From positions 26,382,853-26,446,852 of the forward strand of contig CM067345.1 in assembly GCA_034190875.2 (NCBI GenBank): 64,000 bases of DNA, in the 5' to 3' direction. Below the pieces are notes generated by a model. The model was not told where the DNA came from, did no database searches, and worked only from the letters and a program-made list of their open reading frames with translations. The DNA is from Urechis unicinctus. Taxonomy: Eukaryota; Annelida; Polychaeta; Xenopneusta; Urechidae. A program made the translations under genes and the position numbers. Below, one piece after another: positions 8,529 through 60,576 of this stretch (position 1 is the first letter of the stretch; each line of letters opens with the position of its first letter).

Positions 8529-60576
<52,048 letters not shown>

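Follow-up and report, generated by a model that had tools for sequence, protein, structure and literature searches.

A Ngaro-type retrotransposon eight bases into a VPS13 intron probably struck an ordinary target of its recombinase

How does a retrotransposon come to lie within a few bases of a splice donor and leave that donor unaltered? The question is raised by the VPS13 gene of Urechis unicinctus, which crosses the window (the 64,000-nucleotide stretch of DNA analysed here) on the minus strand. Read on the gene strand, the exon ...CTCCACCAAAA closes at 21954 and GTACG TAATGATTAATTATGG follows, confirming the preliminary description, in which the exon ends here, the intron starts GTACG and a retrotransposon comes next. 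Joining the exon end at 21954 to the exon start at 14873 gives a single open frame. Its peptide has alignments spanning the join to two PDB chains, one named VPS13A (9yg5_B, E 2e-5) and the other VPS13C (9yqp_B, E 5e-4); a Pfam scan of the 90-aa joined stretch returned no match, and without splicing the frame runs for 9 further codons past the exon and then stops. The donor, AAA/GTACGT, departs from the usual consensus in two places, -1 and +4. The intron is now 7080 bp long, and a single element makes up all of it except 233 bp, its reconstructed length without the element. We suggest, with a probability of roughly 85%, that a Ngaro-family element entered this 233-bp intron in sense orientation, that the site it hit was an ordinary one for its recombinase, and that the closeness to the donor reflects chance together with survivorship.

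The element (Table 1) has split direct repeats in the order A1-ORFs-B1A2B2, a tyrosine recombinase and a reverse transcriptase; among the five element ORFs scanned, drawn from ten ORFs of at least 100 aa listed in 14000-23000, none gave a Pfam match to a DIRS-type methyltransferase at E 0.001. This is the combination of features found in Ngaro elements. The RNase H profile reached 19.8 bits on the reverse transcriptase ORF, against a cut-off of 24.8, and matches of the recombinase ORF to XerD-type NCBIfam models fell far under their cut-offs. Viral and prokaryote collections yielded no relatives, including by the exact 28-base end pattern. The insertion is fairly young, because A1 and A2, and likewise B1 and B2, differ at so few positions, and the recombinase of this copy is probably not functional, since it is split over two overlapping frames. 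Between the recombinase and B1 lies a repeated unit of about 24 bases (CAGCTAGCCACCAGGCTACAACTG), in six spaced copies at 16191-16664.

Table 1. Features of the VPS13 intron and its element (window positions), and family copies with a probable exon nearby (contig:position).
Feature	Position	Strand or orientation	Remarks
VPS13 exon upstream of element	21954..22087	-	ends CACCAAAA right before donor; start after TTTGCAG, placed by eye
Splice donor GTACGTAA	21946..21953	-	all host DNA, from sibling copies; target trinucleotide TAA = 21948-21946
Ngaro-type tyrosine-recombinase retrotransposon	15099..21945	-	sense to VPS13; 6847 bp, 6850 bp counting left TAA
A1 terminal repeat	21730..21948	-	vs A2: 1 difference in 219
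SGNH/GDSL hydrolase-like ORF, 206 aa	20987..21607	-	Pfam Lipase_GDSL 1.4e-7
Gag-like ORF, 369 aa	19213..20322	-	without Pfam match; so named for its position
Reverse transcriptase / RNase H ORF, 621 aa	17661..19526	-	Pfam RVT_1 8.8e-10; RT_RNaseH under cut-off
Tyrosine recombinase, two overlapping frames	16701..17760	-	Phage_integrase 6.4e-8 in second frame; no Pfam match in first frame
B1 repeat	15681..15996	-	vs B2: 2 differences in 316 columns
A2 repeat	15465..15683	-	B1/A2 junction core TAA
B2 terminal repeat	15099..15413	-	end GAGCATAA; sense AATAAA at 15262
Next VPS13 exon	14738..14873	-	follows acceptor TGTAACAG
Copy in VPS13		sense	starts +9 after donor; exon by homology
Sibling copy	C2:59340736	same strand	starts +12 of probable donor AAA/GTAAGC; acceptor TTTCAG/GTGGTGG; open frames and splice motifs
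Sibling copy, solo	C2:9627000		23 bp before probable acceptor; open frames and splice motifs
Sibling copy	C11:12345173		30 bp before probable acceptor; open frames and splice motifs
Sibling copy	C13:44161136	antisense	middle of short intron, probable coiled-coil exon; open frames and splice motifs
Sibling copy	C8:43488034		about 90 bp after probable donor; open frames and splice motifs
Sibling copy	C2:9039277	antisense	intronic, about 115 bp from dynein heavy-chain exon; Pfam 5.8e-25

The edges of the element can be read against its own internal junction. Agreement between A1 and the internal B1/A2 junction begins at TAATGATT (T at 21948), and agreement between B2 and B1 runs through GAGCATAA (15099), so that the letters shared are exactly TAA: the internal junction reads ..GAGCA TAA TGATT.., the left edge GTACG TAA TGATT and the right edge GAGCA TAA CTCTATATT. 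Taking the element out with one TAA kept yields GTACG-TAA-CTCTATATT, as had been claimed, and the predicted empty site GTACGTAACTCT. No empty VPS13 allele or alternative haplotype was found in the assembly, where the exon flank has one place only, and the exact VPS13 empty site is a reconstruction.

To which side the TAA belongs was read from sibling copies. We searched the genome (1.19 Gb, 926 contigs) for both ends with patterns that omitted the core and allowed up to 2 mismatches, and obtained 88 starts of A and 92 ends of B; reversed-pattern controls gave 0 matches in both searches. Pairs of B end and A start lying no more than 5 bp apart were counted as internal junctions, and all 29 of these had exactly 3 bp in between, reading TAA in the 18 that were fetched and in the window's own. 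Removal of the junctions left 59 left and 63 right ends, three of the latter being junctions with a changed A2 start, which were dropped to give 60; one left end lacking TGATT (the partner of C5:16225318) fell outside the pattern. The left triplets were TAT (25), TAA (24), TCT (2) and eight others once each, AAA and GAA among them; the right triplets were TAA (52), TTA (3), TTT (2) and AAA, CAA and TGA (1 each), and never TAT. With identical flanks removed (59 to 55 left ends, 60 to 57 right ends), the left ends had 22 cases of TAT and the right ends had none (sign test 5e-7). The sibling sequences thus show that the left triplet, being variable among the 59 siblings, is host DNA, and that the right one, being TAA in 52 of 60, is as a rule element DNA; the eight non-TAA right triplets may be later mutations. 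Since the left TAA (+6 to +8) is host-derived, the element proper starts at 21945 (intron +9), with the donor original through +8.

Eight of the copies are solo AB units of about 0.5-0.6 kb, resembling solo LTRs and probably products of A1-A2 recombination. Copies on C17 (three flank pieces) and on C5 (two) have nearly or exactly identical host flanks, either through segmental duplication or because they inserted into another repeat.

What integration did to the host was seen directly at one sibling, which sits inside a 44-bp satellite array (C11:10268731). Its flanks, joined with one TAA, gave gap-free end-to-end matches to the array at 90-99.5% in 22 overlapping registers (20 and 2, over two flank pieces of this one copy). 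This insertion duplicated and removed no host bases beyond the shared triplet. A 3-bp core in 29 of 29 junctions, and no target-site duplication or loss at the one satellite copy, are what DIRS-type integration entails. At a (TA)n target (C13:44960168) the left TAT and right ATAT join as an unbroken repeat; two further (TA)n copies, with left ATA and ATT, join less cleanly. With DNA added after the VPS13 TAA and no host base removed or duplicated, the exon and donor through +8 are unchanged, and the preliminary statement that the donor looked the same before and after insertion is borne out by the shared TAA core and the gap-free satellite copy.

Does the family have a taste for donors? Once microsatellite flanks were excluded (leaving 40 left and 38 right ends), the logo had A at -3 (23/40), A at -1 (24/40), a TAW core, A at +1 (25/38), T at +2 (18/38) and T at +8 (24/38). 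These flanks suggest an AT-rich A-TAW-AT target with no donor motif. The earlier idea of a target preference therefore stands in so far as sibling flanks are non-random, but they are not splice-like: GT lies five bases ahead of the core in 5 of 59 left ends, and GTNNG comes before the core in 1/59, the VPS13 copy being the only one at GTNNG/TAA. The proposed comparison of siblings for donor-like sites returned the VPS13 copy itself and one more at +12 of a probable donor. Over the 28 bp preceding the left end, GTRAG occurred 4 times in sense (at 3 loci; 1 and 2 times in the two control windows) and once in antisense (controls 2 and 6); past the right end it occurred 0 times in sense (controls 0 and 2) and twice in antisense (controls 4 and 1). 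Scored with the family motif, the VPS13 site falls mid-range among the siblings, ranking from the lowest 35th of 55 for the left flank and 20th of 57 for the right. The 233-bp empty intron offers 26 TAW sites, 14 of them on the gene strand and 12 on the opposite one, and the site nearest the donor is one of these 26.

Two other accounts of the VPS13 junction are very improbable. The preliminary description had the element supply the donor bases from about +6, in which case insertion would have rebuilt the donor. In the VPS13 copy alone the boundary is indeed ambiguous, host and element both offering TAA, but siblings carry TAT, TCT, AAA, GAA and others immediately before TGATT, which shows that the triplet is host-derived and the element starts at +9; the unbroken (TA)n join at C13:44960168 argues the same way, and the claim is not supported. 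That the element was misplaced at the VPS13 exon edge during assembly is a shade less credible again, because both ends obey the junction rules of the family and the exon flank has its one place in the assembly within a 64.9-Mb contig.

A bias of integration towards same-strand 5' splice sites deserves longer discussion, although we consider it unlikely. It might act through transcription or R-loops opening the DNA immediately past donors, or through AT-rich donors such as GTAAGTAA or GTACGTAA offering a TAW core, and it draws on two of the 59 left ends, those of VPS13 and C2:59340736, which are 8 and 11 bp inside an intron past a same-strand donor. In the second case the empty intron measures 108 bp, and a RING exon lies about 1.5 kb downstream (Pfam 4.3e-10), in a gene that, judged by eye, we take to be RNF213-like; the exon pair adjoining the copy had no Pfam match, and its PDB matches were insignificant (best E 0.69 and 0.16). 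At least seven copies have a probable exon nearby, a minimum count because high-scoring flanks, most of them about 160 bp long, were picked through by eye. Searched against Pfam, five of seven flank peptides had no match, the dynein and RING exons being those that matched. A coding-score model for flank exons found 28 of 29 training peptides yet was weak, giving the RING-gene exon only 1.5, and ORF length alone was too noisy as an exon finder. A uniform model with an assumed 150,000-300,000 donors predicts that 0.04-0.09 of the 59 left ends would start no more than 12 bp from a same-strand donor, and the probability of the two or more observed is 0.001-0.004 with the index case counted. Leaving the VPS13 copy out, the probability of at least one such start is 0.04-0.09, which is the fairer figure because one of the two cases prompted the question. 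Against a bias stand the sibling logo, which has no donor-like motif, and the other five exon-adjacent copies, which lie roughly 23-115 bp from a probable splice site. Taking the seven exon-adjacent copies and introns of about 100-230 bp, two so close would arise with a probability of 0.04 at 5% per site or 0.15 at 10%. The data are too weak to claim a donor bias and too odd to dismiss one.

We return to the reading of an ordinary target. In this family the element (TGATT...GAGCATAA) is added straight behind a host trinucleotide, and no target bases are duplicated or lost. Integration would recombine the TAA junction of the element with a similar TAW in the host. Closeness to the VPS13 donor would be chance, the insertion having been kept since donor and exon stayed intact. 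The preliminary description pointed out that a hit on the exon side would have broken the gene; this holds, but for any insertion, and with insertions into exons or donor cores lost, the observed position is partly a matter of survivorship. The polarity of the core is strong, with the host triplet kept on the A1 side and the element's TAA on the B2 side. Random resolution of a heteroduplex predicts TAT on both sides, whereas TAT is confined to the left; the crossover may have fallen immediately 3' of the triplet, or a single strand may have been exchanged and then replicated. We doubt the fuller proposal that the family combines single-strand exchange of one polarity with a preference for sites just past same-strand 5' splice sites; a donor preference, if true, would perhaps act via AT-rich donors and DNA opened during transcription.

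The locus illustrates that a 6.8-kb sense insertion 8 bp from an exon can leave a splice donor untouched. The bigger effect on VPS13 is likely to be the roughly 30-fold lengthening of the intron together with sense AATAAA signals, which in the element lie in B1 (15844) and B2 (15262), among others; this is a prediction from sequence. From the sibling set come a motif for the targets of one Ngaro family and evidence that the core has a strong left-host, right-element polarity, which constrains integration models for Ngaro-type retrotransposons.

Among known systems, Cryptons share a tyrosine recombinase and short direct repeats, considered the recombination substrate (PMC3212892); they differ in being DNA transposons without reverse transcriptase, and their repeats are 4 or 6 bp. 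The closest likeness is to Ngaro elements of the DIRS order. The repeat order A1-[ORFs]-B1A2B2 is set out in PMC8547959, and Ngaro elements are described without methyltransferase in PMC4157794; the VPS13-intron element has these split direct repeats, reverse transcriptase and tyrosine recombinase, no methyltransferase match and a length in the range of 6-7 kb. We saw no defining difference; in the VPS13-intron element the gag-like ORF is preceded by a hydrolase-like one. For DIRS1, the model in PMC3266345 has a circular junction whose 3-bp core recombines with a host triplet, commonly A/T-rich, without target-site duplication. The junction core, the recombination with a host triplet and the absence of duplication are DIRS1-like; in contrast, DIRS1 has inverted terminal repeats where our element has split direct ones, and in our family the host triplet may differ from the core, the left triplet being TAT or TAA in nearly equal numbers and the right one predominantly TAA and never TAT.
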